A stretch of 64,000 nucleotides of DNA from assembly GCF_900115165.1 (NCBI RefSeq), contig NZ_FOVP01000001.1, positions 1 to 64,000 on the forward strand. Direction: 5' to 3'. Below, piece by piece: positions 25,533-32,616 of the stretch (position 1 is the first letter of the stretch; every line of letters begins with the position of its first letter). The notes below the pieces were generated by a model. It was given only the letters and a program-made list of their open reading frames with translations, did not search any database and was not told where the DNA came from. Source of the stretch: Roseovarius lutimaris (GTDB lineage: Bacteria; Pseudomonadota; Alphaproteobacteria; Rhodobacterales; Rhodobacteraceae). The position numbers were made by a program, and so were the translations under genes.

Positions 25533-27134
25533 ATGACAGAGGCAACACAGACCCGGATACTGCCTTCGCGGGTGGTCTGGCTTGGTGCGTTATTCGCGAC
25601 CGAGATGGTCGTGGTGATCCTCGCCTTTCAGATCCTGAGCCAGATTGAGTGTCGCCAAACCGCCATTGAGGGCGCCTGCCGGGCGTTGCGCGGGCTGGCG
25701 CTTGGGGTGATGTGCGTGGCCTTCTTGCTTGGCATTTACCTTTGGGCGCGACCAGAGGCGCGGCAGGGCTTTGCCGATATCTGTCGTGACACACCGGGCG
25801 GGCGGATATCCGGGCTGGTGCATGGGGGTGGGTTTGCCCTGATCCTTGCGCCACTTGGCGTGGTTGCCCCGGCGGATATGAACGCGAATTTTCACCTGAT
25901 CTTTCCGGTGCTGGTGGCGGGGGCCGCACTGGCCGCGCTTGGCGGGCTCTTTTGGCTGGCCAGGCCGGGCGCCTGGCGCAGCTGGCTGCGCGGGCGTGGC
26001 CTGTCGCTCTTGGCGCTCTTTGGGCTGGCGGCGCTGTTGCCGGGGCTTGTGGTTCTGCTGGGGCCGCTCTGGTATCAGCAGGTTCTGACCGATATCACCT
26101 TTATCGCCGTTGTGGTGGCGTTGTCGTTGGTATCCGACCGGGTGACGGTGGACCCGAGTGTGCATATCATCGGCGCCGATGATTTTCTGGTCCAGGTCGC
26201 CGATAGCTGTTCGGGGATCGAGGGTTTTGTTCTGATCACGGTGTTTCTGGCGCTGTTCGCAGCGCTGTTTCGCGACGATTTGCGTCTCAAGCGGTTCTGG
26301 CTGGTGATCTGGCCGCTGGCGCTTGTGGCAAGCTGGATGTTCAACGTGCTGCGCATCACGGCACTTCTTTTGATCGGCGCGCATCTTTCGCCAGAGCTTG
26401 CGGTCAACGGCTTTCACAGCTTTGCCGGCTGGCTGATGTTTTCGACGCTGTCGATCGGTGTGCTGATCGTGGTCAGCCGCAGCGGTTTTGTCATGCGCGA
26501 TGTGGCGGAGGAGAGGGCGGCGCCTGTCGCTTCGTTGGCACAGGATGACGTGGTCGGGCGAATCCTGCCCTTTATTGTCTTTGCCCTCTCGGGGCTGATC
26601 GTTCAGGCGTTCTGGTCTGCGCCTGCGCTTGGCTATCCGGTGCAGGTGGCGATGATGCTTGGCGTGCTGTGGTGGGCGCGCGGGACGGTGCGACGCCATC
26701 TTGCCATGCCGGGGCCGCTGGCGGGTTTCGCAGGCCTGTGTGTCGGCGTGCTCTGGGTGCTGAGCGCACCCGCCGCCGCGCCCGATGCTGCATTGGCGGC
26801 CCTTGGCGGGATGTCGCTGGCGCTTTGGGCCATGCTGCGGATATTTGGCACAGTAATGCTTGTGCCGCTGATCGAAGAGATGTTCTTTCGCGGCTATATT
26901 CAGGCGCGCCTTGATCAGGGCGGGACGGCCTCGCGGGTCGTGGCGGTGCTGGTCTCGGCCACGCTTTTTGCCGCGATGCATGGCCGCTGGATTGAGGCCG
27001 GGCTTGCGGGGCTGGTCTTTTCACTGCTTTACATGCGCAACGGGCGGCTGGCCGATGCCATTGCCGCCCATGCTGTTGCCAATGCCGTTATTGCCGGTGT
27101 CGCCCTGTGGCGGGGCGACTGGTCGCTGATCTGA
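25533..27134 (+). CDS. Exosortase E/CAAX-protease fusion (VPEID-CTERM system)
   Basis: Exosortases are membrane cysteine transpeptidases that cleave proteins bearing PEP-CTERM-type tails. The N-terminal half has the complete exosortase triad: Cys226 (ADSCSGIEG), Arg274 (FNVLRITAL) and His295 (NGFHSFAGW). The C-terminal half is a CPBP/Rce1-type membrane protease with EExxxR (Glu448, Glu449, Arg453), FxxxH (Phe479, His483) and HxxxN (His513, Asn517), all intact. About 14 or more hydrophobic segments span 533 residues. This domain pairing matches what I know as exosortase E of the VPEID-CTERM system. The presumed substrate is encoded immediately downstream on the opposite strand, with stop codons one base apart. 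Confidence 0.92.
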   Translation: MTEATQTRILPSRVVWLGALFATEMVVVILAFQILSQIECRQTAIEGACRALRGLALGVMCVAFLLGIYLWARPEARQGFADICRDTPGGRISGLVHGGGFALILAPLGVVAPADMNANFHLIFPVLVAGAALAALGGLFWLARPGAWRSWLRGRGLSLLALFGLAALLPGLVVLLGPLWYQQVLTDITFIAVVVALSLVSDRVTVDPSVHIIGADDFLVQVADSCSGIEGFVLITVFLALFAALFRDDLRLKRFWLVIWPLALVASWMFNVLRITALLLIGAHLSPELAVNGFHSFAGWLMFSTLSIGVLIVVSRSGFVMRDVAEERAAPVASLAQDDVVGRILPFIVFALSGLIVQAFWSAPALGYPVQVAMMLGVLWWARGTVRRHLAMPGPLAGFAGLCVGVLWVLSAPAAAPDAALAALGGMSLALWAMLRIFGTVMLVPLIEEMFFRGYIQARLDQGGTASRVVAVLVSATLFAAMHGRWIEAGLAGLVFSLLYMRNGRLADAIAAHAVANAVIAGVALWRGDWSLI

Positions 27135-27308
27135 TCAGGCGCGCCTGCGGCGCTTGATTTCCCAGACCAGCACAAGCGCCGCCAGAACCACAGCAATCGC
27201 CAGAGTGCCGCTTGCCGCATCCATCTCGGGCACCGAAGATGCATGCGACGTGGAACCGCCGGAGCCGCTGTTGCCTCCGCCGTAATGCTGGATGAACCAA
27301 TTCCACAT
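27135..27308 (-). CDS. VPEID-CTERM sorting-domain small protein
   Basis: A 57-residue protein made of a short N-terminus (MWNWFIQHYGGG), a Gly/Ser-rich linker (about residues 10-25) and a full sorting tail. The tail is the VPEMD motif (residues 26-30), a hydrophobic helix (TLAIAVVLAALVLVW) and a terminal basic cluster IKRRRRA. This is the tripartite layout of exosortase substrates, and the motif is a one-residue variant of VPEID. The start at 27308 is supported by GGGGAG 8 bases upstream; an upstream ATG at 27380 would add 24 residues unlike a signal peptide. There is no N-terminal signal peptide in either version. The cleavage site and fate of the mature peptide are unknown. Confidence 0.85.
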   Translation of the reverse strand: MWNWFIQHYGGGNSGSGGSTSHASSVPEMDAASGTLAIAVVLAALVLVWEIKRRRRA

Positions 27309-27485
27309 GATGCTGTCTCCCCAGAATGTCTTTCGATCTATATACGACCACATATTTGCCAGAAATCGGCCACATTTCAAGACTGGCGTCGTTTAAGCCG
27401 TGCAGAGTGAAACGAAACGAGCGGAAACCCGGCATTGTTTCCGATTTTCATCAAATGGAATCCTGACAGCGGAAAATATCGCTCG

Positions 27486-27508: not shown

Positions 27509-30500
27509 TCACTCGGCGGCGCGCAATGGCTTGCCTGTGTCGCGGGTCTCAAGAATGCGCTTCAGGTCGTCAAGATCGGGGGGCGGGGTATCGGCCTCTT
27601 CGACATAGCCGATGTCGGGTGCGCTCTCATCCGGCCAGACCAGCTCGGGCGCCTGCACCCGGCGCGCGGCGCGCGTGAGCGCCCAATCGCGGGCGGCGCG
27701 GCTGCTGCGGCCCATCGAGAGTTTCGCCATCAATTGCGCCGTCCAGAGCACATAGGTCCCCGCCCAGACCCGCATCGCCAGCATCGCCGGGGTAAAGATC
27801 AGCGTCAGCACCGTGGCAATGCCAAGCCCGAACACCACCGCCGTCGCCAGTTGTTTCCACCACAAAGCGGTGGGGCTGTTGAAGGCATAGCCGCCCGCGA
27901 CGAAATCAAGGCTCAGCCCGAACATCATCGGCGCAAGCCCCGCCATCGTGGTGATCGTGGTCAGCAGGACCGGCCGGATGCGCGCCTCGGCGGTGCGGGT
28001 GATCGCCTCGATCCGGGGCATGTAGCGGCTGAATTCCTGATAGGTGTCGATCAGGACAATGTTGTTGTTCACCACGATCCCCGCGAGGGCGACAATGCCG
28101 GTGCCGGTCATGATGATCGAAAACGGCTGGTTCATCACCAGCATCCCGATCAGAACCCCGGTGGTCGACAACACCACCGCCAGAAGCACCAGAACCGCGT
28201 TATAGACGCTGTTGAACTGCGCCAGCAGGATGATGAACATCAAGCCCAACGCGCCCAGAAACGCCTTTTGCAGGAAGGCGCCGGATTCTGCCTGATCCTC
28301 GGCGTCGCCGGTCCATTCATAGGTCAGATTGGCGGGCAGAACCCCGCTTTCAAGCCATTTGGTAAGCTCTGCGATCCGCTCGTTGGCGGTGATCGGCACG
28401 CTGGATTCATGGCCCTGCGCATCGGTGGTGGTCTTGCTCAGCCCGTCCACGACCGCAGCCTTGATGTCGAAAAACCGGGTTTGATCGACGCGGTCGATCT
28501 GCGCCAGCTTCTGCACCGGGGTGCGGGTGGTAAAGTTGCTCAGCGGCACAAGCCCGTCTTCGGTGCGCACCTTGAGGGTATCGAGCGTCGAGAGCACCCG
28601 GTCCTTCTCCGGCAGGCGCACGCGAATTTCGATCTCCTCATCGCTGCTTTCAACCCGCATCGTATCAAGCAGGATACCGCGGGTCACAAGCTGCACCATC
28701 GCGCCCACGGTGGCCACATCGGCGCCGAACCGACCGGCCTTTTCCACGTCCACGTCGATCTGCCAGTCGATGCCGGGAAGGGGCAGGGTGTCTTCGACCT
28801 GATGCAGACCGGTGGTTTCATCGAATTTCGCACGCGCCGTTTCGGTAAAGGCGATCAGGCTGTTCCAGTCATCGCTCTTGAGGCGCAGATGCACCGGCTT
28901 GGCCGAGGCCGGGCCGCGCGCCTGTGCGAGGATCTCGACCTTGATGCCGGGGATTTGCCCAAGCTCCTCGGTCAGCTCCGCAATGACCGTGTCGCCGTCA
29001 AAGGCCTCGACCTTGACCGCGCGGCTGACCGCGTAGTTCAGGATCGGAATGGTAAACCAGGTTTCGCGCGCCACTGGGCGCTCATCCCAGGGAATGGTTT
29101 CAAGCTGAACCTGACCGATGGTGTCGCGCGGCGGCTGTGCGCCGCCGGTGTTGTTGGTGAGCCCGCCGTCGCCGGCAAAGGAAAAGGCGGTCTGCACGCC
29201 GGGGTGCGCCAGCACGATCTTTTCGACCTGTGTGACCAGATCGTCCTTTTGGTCGATCGACAGGTTGCCGCGTCCGCGCACGTAAACGATCGCCTGTTCG
29301 GGTTCGGATTCGACAAAAAACTCGGTGCCGTTGTTGTTTTGCACGTAAAAGATCAGAACCGAACCGACGAGCACGAAGATCGCCCCAAAGGCCAGCAGCG
29401 GTGACAGCGGATTGCCGGTGATCAGGTGGATCACCCGGCCAAACGGCGAGCGGCGATAGCCCGCCTTGACGCGCGGGCGCCGGTTGGGCAGGGCGCGGCG
29501 CAACAGCGCGCGACCAAGATTGCCACAGCGACGCCCAATCGCCATCACCCCGAGGAACAGGCCCACGACGCCCCCGAGGCCAATGGCGGCCAAAACGGTC
29601 ACGCCAAGCAAAAGTGCAAAGACCCGCGCCAGGGTCGGCACCACCGATCCCAGAATCCTGGCGCTGTCCAATCCCGCAAAGGCGGCACTGACCTGTTCCA
29701 GCAGCATCGGCGCGACACTGCCCGCCAGGGCCACGGCCCCCGCTGTAATCGGCAAAAGCAACAGGTGCCATAGCCAGAAAAGCCCGGCAATCTGGGCTAT
29801 CCGCAGATCGAACCAGCGCTCGGTGCGCCCGGTCACACCGCCCAGCACCGGCAGATAGACCAGCGCCACCAGAAGCGATGCGCTCAGCACGAAGATCAGA
29901 GTGACCGGCAACATGCCCATGAACTGCCCCGGAATACCGGGCCAGAACAGCATTGGCAAAAATGCGCAGAGCGTGGTCGCGGTCGAACTTACCACAGGCC
30001 AGAACATCCGCTTGGCCGCCGCGACATAGGCGTGCATCGGGCCGACGCCCTCATCAATCCGCTTGTCGGCATATTCGACCACCACGATAGCGCCATCGAC
30101 CAACATGCCCACCGCGAGGATGAGGCCGAACATCACGATATTGGAAACCGCCACCCCCATGATCGCCAAAAGCGCAAAGCACAGCAGGAACGAAGTCGGG
30201 ATTGCAAAGCCCACCAACAGCGCCGGGCGAATGCCAAGCGTCGCCAGAATGACGATCATCACAAGCGCAATCGCCGTCAGCACCGAGCCTTCAAGCTGGC
30301 TGACCATCGAGGCCACGGTGCGCGACTGATCGTTGGATGTGCCCACGGTTACAGCGGCGCGCACCTCGTCCGGCCAGCGGGCCGCCGTCTTGGCCACCAC
30401 CTCGCGCACAAGGTCGGCGGTGTCGATGATGTTGAAACCCTTGCGCTTGACCACCTGCAAGGCCACCGTGGTTTCGCCGTTAAAGCGCGCGGTGCCGAGG

Positions 30501-31300
30501 CGGTCCTCGAAGGTCAGGTTGATCGTCGCCAGATCGCCAAGCCGCACCACCCGGTCGCCATTGGTCTTGATCGGCAGGCGATAGATATCGCGGGTTTCTT
30601 CAAATGAGGACGGGATCTTGACCGAAAACGTGCCTTGGGCATTGTCGACCTCGCCGGCGGCAATAAGCTGATTGTTGTTGCGCACCACATTGATCAGCTC
30701 AAGGGCTGTGACATTATAGGCCTCAAGGCGCAGCGGGTCGATCACCACCTCGACCATCTCGTCGCGATTGCCCGCGATGCCGGCCTCAAGCACCGGTTCC
30801 ATGCCCTCAAGCGTATCCTGAAGATCCTTGGCAAGCCGCGCCATCGTGCGCTCTGGCAAAGGGCCGCTCAGATTGACGACGATGATCGGGAATTCGCTGA
30901 AATTGACCTCGTTCAGGGTGTATTTCTCGGCCCCCTCGGGAAAGTCGGCCTCGGCGGTGTCCATCGCATCGCGCACATCGGCAAGGATCTTGGTCTTGTC
31001 CCAGCCGAACTCGAACTCAAGCGCGACGCCGCCATAGTTTTCCGCCGCAGTGCCGGTCATGGTCTTGAGCCCGTCAAGATCGCTCAGCTCGGTTTCCATG
31101 ACCTTGACCAGAAGTTTTTCGCTGTCTTCGGCGGAAATGCCGGGGAAGGGGACCGAGACGAAGAGGGCCGGGATTTCGATGTCGGGCTCGCCCTCTTTGG
31201 GCAGTCCGACATAGGCCAGCGTGCCCGCAAGCACCGAGAGCACCACAAAGGCCAGCACCATGCGTGCGCGCGCGGCGGCCCAATCGACGATGCCGGTCAT
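27509..31300 (-). CDS. RND-family efflux pump permease
   Basis: An inner-membrane proton-driven transporter that works with a periplasmic adaptor and an outer-membrane channel. At 1263 residues it is longer than the usual 1020-1050. The excess is mostly an insertion at about residues 487-625, between the two halves, with roughly three extra hydrophobic segments and a basic stretch (RRALPNRRPRVKAGYRR). The TM4 motif is GMLVDGAIVVVEYADKR, with one aspartate where AcrB has two. The TM10 region GIVVNNNIVLIDTYQEF has Asn where AcrB has the relay lysine. The start overlaps the adaptor stop by four bases. Substrate unknown. Confidence 0.9.
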   Translation of the reverse strand: MTGIVDWAAARARMVLAFVVLSVLAGTLAYVGLPKEGEPDIEIPALFVSVPFPGISAEDSEKLLVKVMETELSDLDGLKTMTGTAAENYGGVALEFEFGWDKTKILADVRDAMDTAEADFPEGAEKYTLNEVNFSEFPIIVVNLSGPLPERTMARLAKDLQDTLEGMEPVLEAGIAGNRDEMVEVVIDPLRLEAYNVTALELINVVRNNNQLIAAGEVDNAQGTFSVKIPSSFEETRDIYRLPIKTNGDRVVRLGDLATINLTFEDRLGTARFNGETTVALQVVKRKGFNIIDTADLVREVVAKTAARWPDEVRAAVTVGTSNDQSRTVASMVSQLEGSVLTAIALVMIVILATLGIRPALLVGFAIPTSFLLCFALLAIMGVAVSNIVMFGLILAVGMLVDGAIVVVEYADKRIDEGVGPMHAYVAAAKRMFWPVVSSTATTLCAFLPMLFWPGIPGQFMGMLPVTLIFVLSASLLVALVYLPVLGGVTGRTERWFDLRIAQIAGLFWLWHLLLLPITAGAVALAGSVAPMLLEQVSAAFAGLDSARILGSVVPTLARVFALLLGVTVLAAIGLGGVVGLFLGVMAIGRRCGNLGRALLRRALPNRRPRVKAGYRRSPFGRVIHLITGNPLSPLLAFGAIFVLVGSVLIFYVQNNNGTEFFVESEPEQAIVYVRGRGNLSIDQKDDLVTQVEKIVLAHPGVQTAFSFAGDGGLTNNTGGAQPPRDTIGQVQLETIPWDERPVARETWFTIPILNYAVSRAVKVEAFDGDTVIAELTEELGQIPGIKVEILAQARGPASAKPVHLRLKSDDWNSLIAFTETARAKFDETTGLHQVEDTLPLPGIDWQIDVDVEKAGRFGADVATVGAMVQLVTRGILLDTMRVESSDEEIEIRVRLPEKDRVLSTLDTLKVRTEDGLVPLSNFTTRTPVQKLAQIDRVDQTRFFDIKAAVVDGLSKTTTDAQGHESSVPITANERIAELTKWLESGVLPANLTYEWTGDAEDQAESGAFLQKAFLGALGLMFIILLAQFNSVYNAVLVLLAVVLSTTGVLIGMLVMNQPFSIIMTGTGIVALAGIVVNNNIVLIDTYQEFSRYMPRIEAITRTAEARIRPVLLTTITTMAGLAPMMFGLSLDFVAGGYAFNSPTALWWKQLATAVVFGLGIATVLTLIFTPAMLAMRVWAGTYVLWTAQLMAKLSMGRSSRAARDWALTRAARRVQAPELVWPDESAPDIGYVEEADTPPPDLDDLKRILETRDTGKPLRAAE

Positions 31301-32526
31301 TGGCCAAGCTCCTGATAGGTCGGTTTGACCGGCACCCCATCGGTGACATATTCCTGTCCAATCACGATTACATCGGCGCTTTCGGGCAGGCCGGTCATCC
31401 AGACCCCCTGCGGCGTGTCGCGCAACAGCGTGACCGGCGTGAAGAGGGCGCGGCTGTCGCCATCCACAAGGCGCACCCCAAGGGTGCCCTCGTCATCAAG
31501 CGTCAGCGCCGATTGCGGCAGCAAATGCGCGGTCTTGCCCTCGGCGCTTATCATGATTTCGGCGGTTTCACCGTCGCGCAGGCCAAGGTCGGGGTTGGGC
31601 ACTTCGATCTCGACGCGAAAGGTGCGGGTGGTGTTGTCGGCGGCGCGCGACAGGAAGGTCACCCGCCCTTCGGCGCTCAGGCCCGAGGCAAGGCGGGCTG
31701 TGGCCATGGCGCCGCGCTCGACGCGCGCAACCTGCATTTCCGACACGAACCCGACAAGCGTGATCGGATCGAGTTGCAGCACCGTGGCACAGAGCGCGCC
31801 GGGTTGCAGAAGGCTGCCGATTTCGGCGGTGTCGGTCTCAAGAACGCCCTCAAAGGGTGCGGTGATTTCCAGCCGCTCAATCTCGCTCTCGGCGGCGCTG
31901 ATGGCGGCGCGGGCCGATTCGATGCCTGCGCGCGCCGCCTCAAGCCCGGAACTGGCCGATTGCACCGCAGCGCGGGCAGAGCTTACTTCGGCGCGGGTGG
32001 CCGCCACGCGGGTTTGCGAGGCAAAGCCGCCGCGCTCAAGGTTTTCGGCGGCGTTGGCGTTGATTTCGGCCTCTTCAAGCTGGGCGCGGGCCTCCAATGT
32101 GCGGGCCTCGGCCTCGGGCACGCGGGTTTTTGCCTCGGCAAGCCGGGCGCGGGCCTCGGCCAGAGTGGCGTTGCGCGCGGCCGGATCAAGGCGGCAGAGC
32201 AGATCGCCCTTTGCCACAAACGCCCCCTTGCGCAGCGGCTCGGAGATGACAAGGCCGGATGTTTCTGCGCGCAGCTCGACAAGGCGGTTGGCCTCGGTTC
32301 GCCCGCGCAGGATCACGGCGCTGTCGATCACCCGCGCCTTTGAGTGGATGGCGACGACGCCGACCTTGCTCTGTTCGGTGTTGGGTGCGGTCGCGCTTTC
32401 GTCTGCGGGGGCGGTCGCCTCTGGTGTGGGCGCGGGCAGCAGCGCGACCAGGCGCTCACGCTCGAACACAAAGGCATAGATCAGCGCGGAAACCACGATG
32501 GCAATCAAAATAGGAATTAAACGCAT
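31297..32526 (-). CDS. RND efflux periplasmic adaptor (membrane fusion protein)
   Basis: The adaptor links the pump to an outer-membrane channel, which is not encoded nearby. An N-terminal anchor (MRLIPILIAIVVSALIYAFVF) is followed by a biotinyl-lipoyl-like segment (LRAETSGLVISEPLRKGAFVAKGDLL) and a long alanine/glutamate-rich coiled-coil hairpin (about residues 115-215). The beta-barrel with ITAPFEGVLETDTAEIGSLL comes next. I place the start at 32526, with GGAAAG upstream; a longer frame starting at 32571 would run into a cluster of palindromic half-sites. The length is 409 residues. It is the first gene of a two-gene operon. Confidence 0.9.
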   Translation of the reverse strand: MRLIPILIAIVVSALIYAFVFERERLVALLPAPTPEATAPADESATAPNTEQSKVGVVAIHSKARVIDSAVILRGRTEANRLVELRAETSGLVISEPLRKGAFVAKGDLLCRLDPAARNATLAEARARLAEAKTRVPEAEARTLEARAQLEEAEINANAAENLERGGFASQTRVAATRAEVSSARAAVQSASSGLEAARAGIESARAAISAAESEIERLEITAPFEGVLETDTAEIGSLLQPGALCATVLQLDPITLVGFVSEMQVARVERGAMATARLASGLSAEGRVTFLSRAADNTTRTFRVEIEVPNPDLGLRDGETAEIMISAEGKTAHLLPQSALTLDDEGTLGVRLVDGDSRALFTPVTLLRDTPQGVWMTGLPESADVIVIGQEYVTDGVPVKPTYQELGQ

Positions 32527-32551
32527 CTTGCAACTTTCCGAGCCGGGCGTC

Positions 32552-32616
32552 TCATACCGTATGACCATCATACCGCATGGCTATGGGCGCAGGCGGGGTT
32601 CATACTCCGTCATACG
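32552..32616. promoter_or_regulatory. Cluster of TCATAC half-sites upstream of the RND operon
   Basis: A perfect palindrome TCATACCGTATGA (32552-32564) is followed by TCATACCGCATGG (32568) and two more TCATAC half-sites at 32600 and 32610. The cluster lies 26-90 bases upstream of the adaptor start, in the divergent region shared with the YfgM-like gene. The pattern suits a TetR- or MarR-type repressor or a dimeric activator. No regulator gene is adjacent. Confidence 0.6.

Follow-up and report, generated by a model that had tools for sequence, protein, structure and literature searches.

The closest described system to the locus analysed here is exosortase E / VPEID-CTERM, a family that is already catalogued in NCBIfam through an enzyme model (TIGR04162) and a substrate model (TIGR04161). 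The original prediction on this DNA had called the mature product of the unit, its location and its purpose undescribed, which stands for the literature but not for the protein families: a thin literature search found no paper on exosortase E / VPEID-CTERM, cleavage data for any member included, and none that mentions VPEID-CTERM. The PEP-CTERM / EpsH system shares a related enzyme profile and the tripartite tail, but a genome with that system is described as tending to have a large number of substrates (median eight), which carry leaders (PMC1569441), whereas a single leaderless one is found here. An N-terminal signal peptide is stated to be "always" present in PEP-CTERM-type substrates in one account (PMC3237569) and to be present in 97% of them in another (PMC1569441), and leaderless forms in the GlyGly-CTERM system have been judged mostly to be gene-model or sequencing errors (PMC3237569).

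Gene proximity comparable to that of the present pair is known from rhombosortase / GlyGly-CTERM, where enzyme and target lie at most one gene apart in 16 of 21 single-target genomes (PMC3237569), but the protease is unrelated. Myxosortase MrtX, acting on MYXO-CTERM proteins, likewise brings a CPBP protease into protein sorting; unlike the fusion described here, it is a stand-alone enzyme with dozens of substrates whose tag carries an invariant Cys (PMC11980579), and the tag in our locus has none. The myxosortase profile Mrt_core scores 39.8 bits on our enzyme, below its cut-off of 100, and myxosortase membership is therefore not assigned.

The convergent gene pair of Roseovarius lutimaris

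The window, by which we mean the whole stretch of 64,000 nucleotides of R. lutimaris DNA that was analysed, holds adjacent genes for an exosortase E / CPBP protease fusion and a small VPEID-CTERM protein, both scoring over the curated cut-offs (Table 1). The source genome contains one exosortase-fold match and one TIGR04161 match over cut-off. The small protein, with its motif, helix and basic tail at the C-terminus, differs from the catalogued system in being leaderless and only 57 residues long. The 533-residue exosortase E/CAAX-protease fusion with both active sites kept, and its convergent partner of 57 residues with VPEMD, a helix and a basic cluster, had all been predicted, and the profile search against both models that was proposed as a check agrees with this reading. 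The stop codons had been placed one base apart; they in fact abut, with TGA at 27132-27134 and TCA at 27135-27137 reading TGATCA and zero bases between. The ATG at 27308 is the preferred start of the small ORF, for which the mechanical ORF list uses an upstream TTG and gives 81 residues.

Table 1. Features of the exosortase E locus (positions are those of the window)
Feature	Position	Strand	Evidence
Exosortase E / CPBP protease fusion (XrtE), 533 aa	25533..27134	+	TIGR04162, 580.8 bits (cut-off 150), profile positions 4-516 of 516 covered; Pfam PF09721 (exosortase) and PF02517 (Rce1-like)
Exosortase domain, aa 62-315	25716..26477	+	Pfam PF09721, 50.4 bits
Exosortase residues C226, R274, H295	codons 26208-26210, 26352-26354, 26415-26417	+	
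CPBP (Rce1-like) protease domain, aa 432-519	26826..27089	+	Pfam PF02517, 69.2 bits
CPBP protease residues E448, E449, R453, F479, H483, H513, N517	within 26826..27089	+	conservation in alignments
VPEID-CTERM mini-protein, 57 aa, without signal peptide	27135..27308	-	TIGR04161, 53.7 bits (cut-off 33), aa 26-56, 31 of 31 profile positions
Head, aa 1-25: aromatic MWNWFIQHY, then Gly/Ser-rich linker	27234..27308	-	model; segment order common to 25 aligned leaderless proteins
VPEMD sorting motif, aa 26-30	27219..27233	-	V, P, E and D invariant in 25 aligned leaderless proteins
Transmembrane helix and basic tail KRRRRA, aa 31-57	27138..27218	-	helix 31-56 in model
Shine-Dalgarno-like GGGGAGA	27316..27322	-	read from sequence, seven bases 5' of ATG
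RND permease gene (profiled) and gene resembling a membrane-fusion partner	27509-32571	-	adjoins the pair

Both catalytic sets of the enzyme are invariant in 41 of 41 family enzymes in a first alignment. In a second alignment of 77 enzymes, C226, R274 and H295 are present in all, as are E448, E449, R453, F479 and H483, and H513 and N517 are each found in 76. Since both sets are conserved, it can be argued that both proteases of the fusion are used, and the CPBP half is probably active. The loop-charge pattern places C226 and H295 on the periplasmic side, a placement which requires that helices 156-180 and 183-200 jointly form one crossing. The AlphaFold2 model of the enzyme is confident (mean pLDDT 91.3, pTM 0.67); a PDB fold search with it gave no match at E ≤ 0.001, known CPBP proteases included, and a PDB sequence search with the enzyme gave none at E ≤ 1. 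Two further cysteines, C40 (codon 25650-25652) and C49 (25677-25679; together window 25650-25679), are invariant in 77 of 77 enzymes and are assigned to the periplasmic side by loop charges, and a disulphide between them is possible.

The model of the small protein (mean pLDDT 69.9) begins with a short helix (residues 2-9) and continues through a coil linker, both of low to modest confidence, into a long helix 31-56. Judged by substitution rates, its motif and tail are under strong purifying selection, dN over residues 26-57 being 0.030 against a dS of 0.38-0.44 in two comparisons. In the same comparisons the head and linker give a dN of 0.20-0.28, on small counts, and residues 1-11 of the head alone give 0.20 between the window and R. 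gaetbuli; given that these values exceed that of the tail, the head seems to keep a pattern more than exact residues. Three comparisons within the R. mucosus group show no change in head residues 1-10, where synonymous changes are zero as well.

Pairing, distribution and gene arrangement

Among 394 genomes of the family, the enzyme is found in 42 (E ≤ 1e-20), a TIGR04161 match in 46 (E ≤ 0.01) and both in 39, so that a substrate match is present in 39 of 42 enzyme genomes compared to 7 of 352 others (Fisher p 5e-43, kinship uncorrected). The enzyme genomes lacking such a match (G007, G017 and G141) have variant tails near the enzyme, as detected by pattern. Five of the seven matches in genomes without the enzyme are weak (E over 0.002), and two (G048 and G134) are good; tblastn with nine enzymes over the 14 kb and 11 kb, respectively, around these two substrate genes revealed no trace of the enzyme. 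The expectation that the small gene is always accompanied by the enzyme, whose failure the original prediction had named as grounds for refutation, thus does not hold in these two genomes. In the wider class the enzyme occurs in 4 of 385 genomes, one of the four lying outside the family.

Within the genus, 19 of 60 genomes match both profiles, 40 match neither, and in the last, G424 (72% complete), only a fragment of the enzyme was found. All 19 contain exactly one substrate match, convergent and at about 150 bases or less from the enzyme match, which is in keeping with the predicted dedicated unit of one enzyme and one substrate. This ratio is not universal: G027 has four substrate matches, three of them leaderless and in tandem beside one enzyme (L076:8288-9273, minus strand) and one leadered on another contig (L044), hence a many-to-one ratio of substrate to enzyme. 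The enzyme is broken or fragmentary in three of the 19 genus genomes (G394, G403 and G435). It is also broken in two of the three closest named relatives of the window, with an in-frame stop between the domains in R. gaetbuli CECT 8370 (L077) and several lesions in R. marisflavi DSM 29327 (L117), the substrate ORF being open in both; in the third (L078) it is intact. The exosortase E unit can therefore be lost.

With regard to gene order, 74 of 80 named loci are convergent, one is same-strand with the substrate upstream, one is divergent, and four gave no pattern match, among which is L080/G445, whose convergent substrate is picked up by the profile. The latter genome (G445, R. tolerans-type; L183 and L080) has a leaderless substrate with VTEMD replacing VPEMD, adjoining an open enzyme frame. 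The 42 family enzyme loci comprise 26 convergent ones (counting G141, whose long proteins are 2 kb away), 13 same-strand with the substrate upstream, one divergent, and two with no substrate nearby, its match lying elsewhere in the genome in G034 and on another contig in G146. One record, L100, is titled Nocardioides marinus and is probably mislabelled or contaminated; its likely counterpart is contig C6 of G238, from the family of the window.

A long RND permease match is present in 39 of 89 loci examined and stands beside the pair in 38, that of L128 being far away. The RND efflux pump was considered as a partner of the unit and rejected, because a strong permease match also occurs in all 21 genus genomes without the enzyme that were searched, and its adjacency is probably synteny for the same reason. 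In these 21 genomes neither the enzyme nor the pump is located within ~1.5 kb on each side of the upstream esterase.

A large adhesin-like protein adjoins the mini-gene in 13 of the 42 enzyme genomes. Of these, 11 have the substrate upstream of the enzyme on the same strand, an order seen at 13 family loci in all; in the other two the pair is convergent (G228) or enzyme and substrate lie on different contigs (G146). Substrates of this sister class are very short, often ending VPEIS... Ten neighbour proteins were profiled, nine of which contain Big_9 and eight of those SdrD_B as well, the tenth being a separate RTX-repeat protein. A profile of the adhesin C-terminal domain, built from nine sequences, matched 19 of the 394 family genomes, and the enzyme is present in 13 of the 19 (Fisher p 6e-10). 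Its match ends 205-289 bases before the mini-gene match, on the same strand, in 14 of 14 genomes, the fourteenth being G134 with the mini-protein present and the enzyme absent; the five other domain-bearing genomes score lower (84.6-171.2 bits). The domain was found by profile search neither in the source genome nor in the 60 genus genomes, a set that holds no known positive for a profile that did match family genomes. The sister class points to surface adhesin biology, and the class of the window is without that link.

Among named loci of this kind, L064, L065, L066, L067, L068, L069, L070 and L071 show the enzyme beside a Big_9 protein, mostly with SdrD_B, whose conserved C-terminal domain ends in CxC. 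In the enzyme-less G134 (L240), a VPEIS mini-protein lies beside an SdrD_B protein, and nearby genes resemble polysaccharide synthesis by eye. A disulphide link between mini-protein and adhesin CxC was considered and is not general, the mini-proteins of L030, L065, L067, L069 and L070 having no Cys.

The leaderless substrate class and its head

The most unusual feature of the window's unit is the absence of a signal peptide, which the original prediction left unmentioned. The head of the small protein reaches a hydropathy maximum of -0.45 and does not qualify as the signal peptide of a PEP-CTERM-type substrate, and the 28 residues in frame upstream of the ATG reach 0.85. Applying Kyte-Doolittle windows, with a maximum under 1.0 taken as leaderless and one protein (MPQW..., maximum 1.3) put in that class by hand, we counted 27 leaderless and 76 leadered forms among 103 unique substrates, where uniqueness is by sequence only, some genomes being present as both G and named L loci. 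This count omits L072, L075, L095 and heads over 105 residues, and leaves outside the leaderless-looking neighbour of L075, which has the most divergent enzyme; the substrate patterns missed L080/G445 (VTEMD) and the third tandem gene of L076/L093 (VPEIA), and the start of L028 is miscalled. An in-frame stop lies within 10 codons upstream of the start in 17 of the 27 leaderless substrates, which makes a missed leader impossible in these. Leaderless forms occur in isolates of Roseovarius, Marivita and Natronohydrobacter, among them Roseovarius mucosus DSM 17069 (L086) and Roseovarius sp. 217 (L084). A leaderless substrate class, against the stated rule that substrates always have a leader, is what is new here.

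On the enzyme tree (101 rows, 94 labelled and 7 unlabelled; a quick, unrooted tree with SH-aLRT support only), the leader state needs a minimum of five changes, at least four of which are forced by well-supported branches. Labels were given by hand to L128 and L013 (leadered) and L093 (leaderless), and the broken enzymes of L077 and L117 are absent. Leadered forms make up 70 of the 94 labelled rows, and since they are the majority, loss of the leader is likelier than gain, although the change count on an unrooted tree cannot tell direction.

The heads of all 27 leaderless substrates are 20-27 residues long, with a net charge of -2 to +1, and share one design. All 131 of their W, F and Y residues are confined to the ten positions that follow Met, at a mean of 4.85 per head compared to 2.24 in 5000 shuffles (maximum 2.96), and the rest of the head is on average 84% G, S, T, N, P or H. 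Leadered relatives show the same order in weaker form: in the 55 of 76 substrates with a mature head of 15 or more residues, W/F/Y make up 31.7% of its N-terminal half and 4.7% of its C-terminal half; the other 21, by a crude leader cut, have shorter mature heads, most with few or no aromatics. Of the 103 mature heads, 85 have no cysteine, 15 have a pair and three have a single one (one of the three being a miscalled start).

Proposed pathway and alternative readings

The best explanation as a whole, to which we assign a probability of roughly 0.6, is a dedicated exosortase E unit whose leaderless single-span mini-protein is inserted N-out and cut by the exosortase to a peptide. It builds on the pairing, the intact active sites, the absent signal peptide, the repeated change of state, the head design and the loop-charge topology, and from these it proposes an insertion route, a cut site, a product and a role for the second protease. 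The mini-protein, the only detected substrate of the window's exosortase E, would send its uncharged 25-residue head across the inner membrane by N-tail insertion of the YidC type, its C-terminus being retained inside by the basic tail. With the protein in this N-out orientation, VPEMD would lie at the periplasmic face, where C226, R274 and H295 could cut. Insertion in this manner would explain why all leaderless forms are short-headed, and would deliver the motif to the exosortase site without a leader. This would yield a peptide of ~28 residues, made up of an aromatic patch at the N-terminus and a flexible linker, that is either released or joined to some surface acceptor. The CPBP half would most likely act on the helix left behind or make another cut in the same substrate; two sequential cuts had been suggested in the original prediction. 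A likeness of topology, and of topology only, is offered by the Pf3 coat, which is not known to have a sorting motif. It is a single-span protein with a translocated N-tail and a YidC substrate (PMC8920935), and Oxa1-family insertases (YidC in E. coli) are described as handling short translocated N-tails (PMC7616256).

It is quite conceivable, at somewhat under even odds, that the unit performs ordinary exosortase sorting of a normal surface protein, its new C-terminus being joined to lipid or polysaccharide and the missing leader a detail. Tail and enzyme do match known families, but such a cargo sits poorly with a start-to-motif stretch as short as that of every leaderless form, and no polysaccharide gene was found among the four window proteins profiled. 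If instead the CPBP half alone cut the tail, as a myxosortase does, with the exosortase half serving as receptor, the low score that the small protein reaches against MYXO-CTERM (16.6 bits, under the cut-off of 20) would fit; the exosortase residues being invariant in all 77 enzymes and the tail having no cysteine, we regard this as improbable. That leader loss merely reflects decay of a dispensable gene is very improbable: two near relatives do have a broken enzyme and the head sequence varies, but the leaderless condition has come up on separate branches where the enzyme frame is open and the head follows the same design, the tail is under strong purifying selection, and the first ten head residues stay unchanged in the R. 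mucosus group comparisons, where synonymous change is zero too.

The adhesin-associated loci raise another reading, in which the mini-protein would serve the enzyme, or some larger client, as adaptor or regulator and would not itself be the end product. The recurrence of the adhesin-like family in enzyme genomes, the constant position of its domain ahead of the mini-gene and the retention of mini-gene and adhesin without the enzyme in G134 all speak for it. The domain was found neither in the source genome nor in the genus genomes, and disulphides to the adhesin CxC fail where the mini-protein is without Cys, and we consider this reading unlikely. Returning to the N-out mini-protein cut to a peptide, a bolder version would make it the first exosortase pathway with a short peptide product, cut by one protease half and trimmed by the other. 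The aromatic-headed peptide would then have its role on the cell surface or beyond it, and surface coat, signal and antimicrobial are examples of such roles. This version is put forward tentatively, as something that we think rather doubtful in its entirety. The Cys pair in some relatives' peptides could serve loop closure.

The recurrent leaderless forms with their 20-27-residue heads suggest that the sorting tail alone might direct export of short-peptide cargo. Moreover, with a single enzyme and a single substrate of 57 residues, in a marine genus that can be cultured, the unit offers a very small system in which to study exosortase cutting and attachment and the reason for a second protease. 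A further variation on the substrate is seen at L155:9517-10245 (minus strand), and also at L023, where the gene looks as if two units had been joined: a VPEID motif lies inside it, and a leader-like stretch and then another VPEID tail come after.
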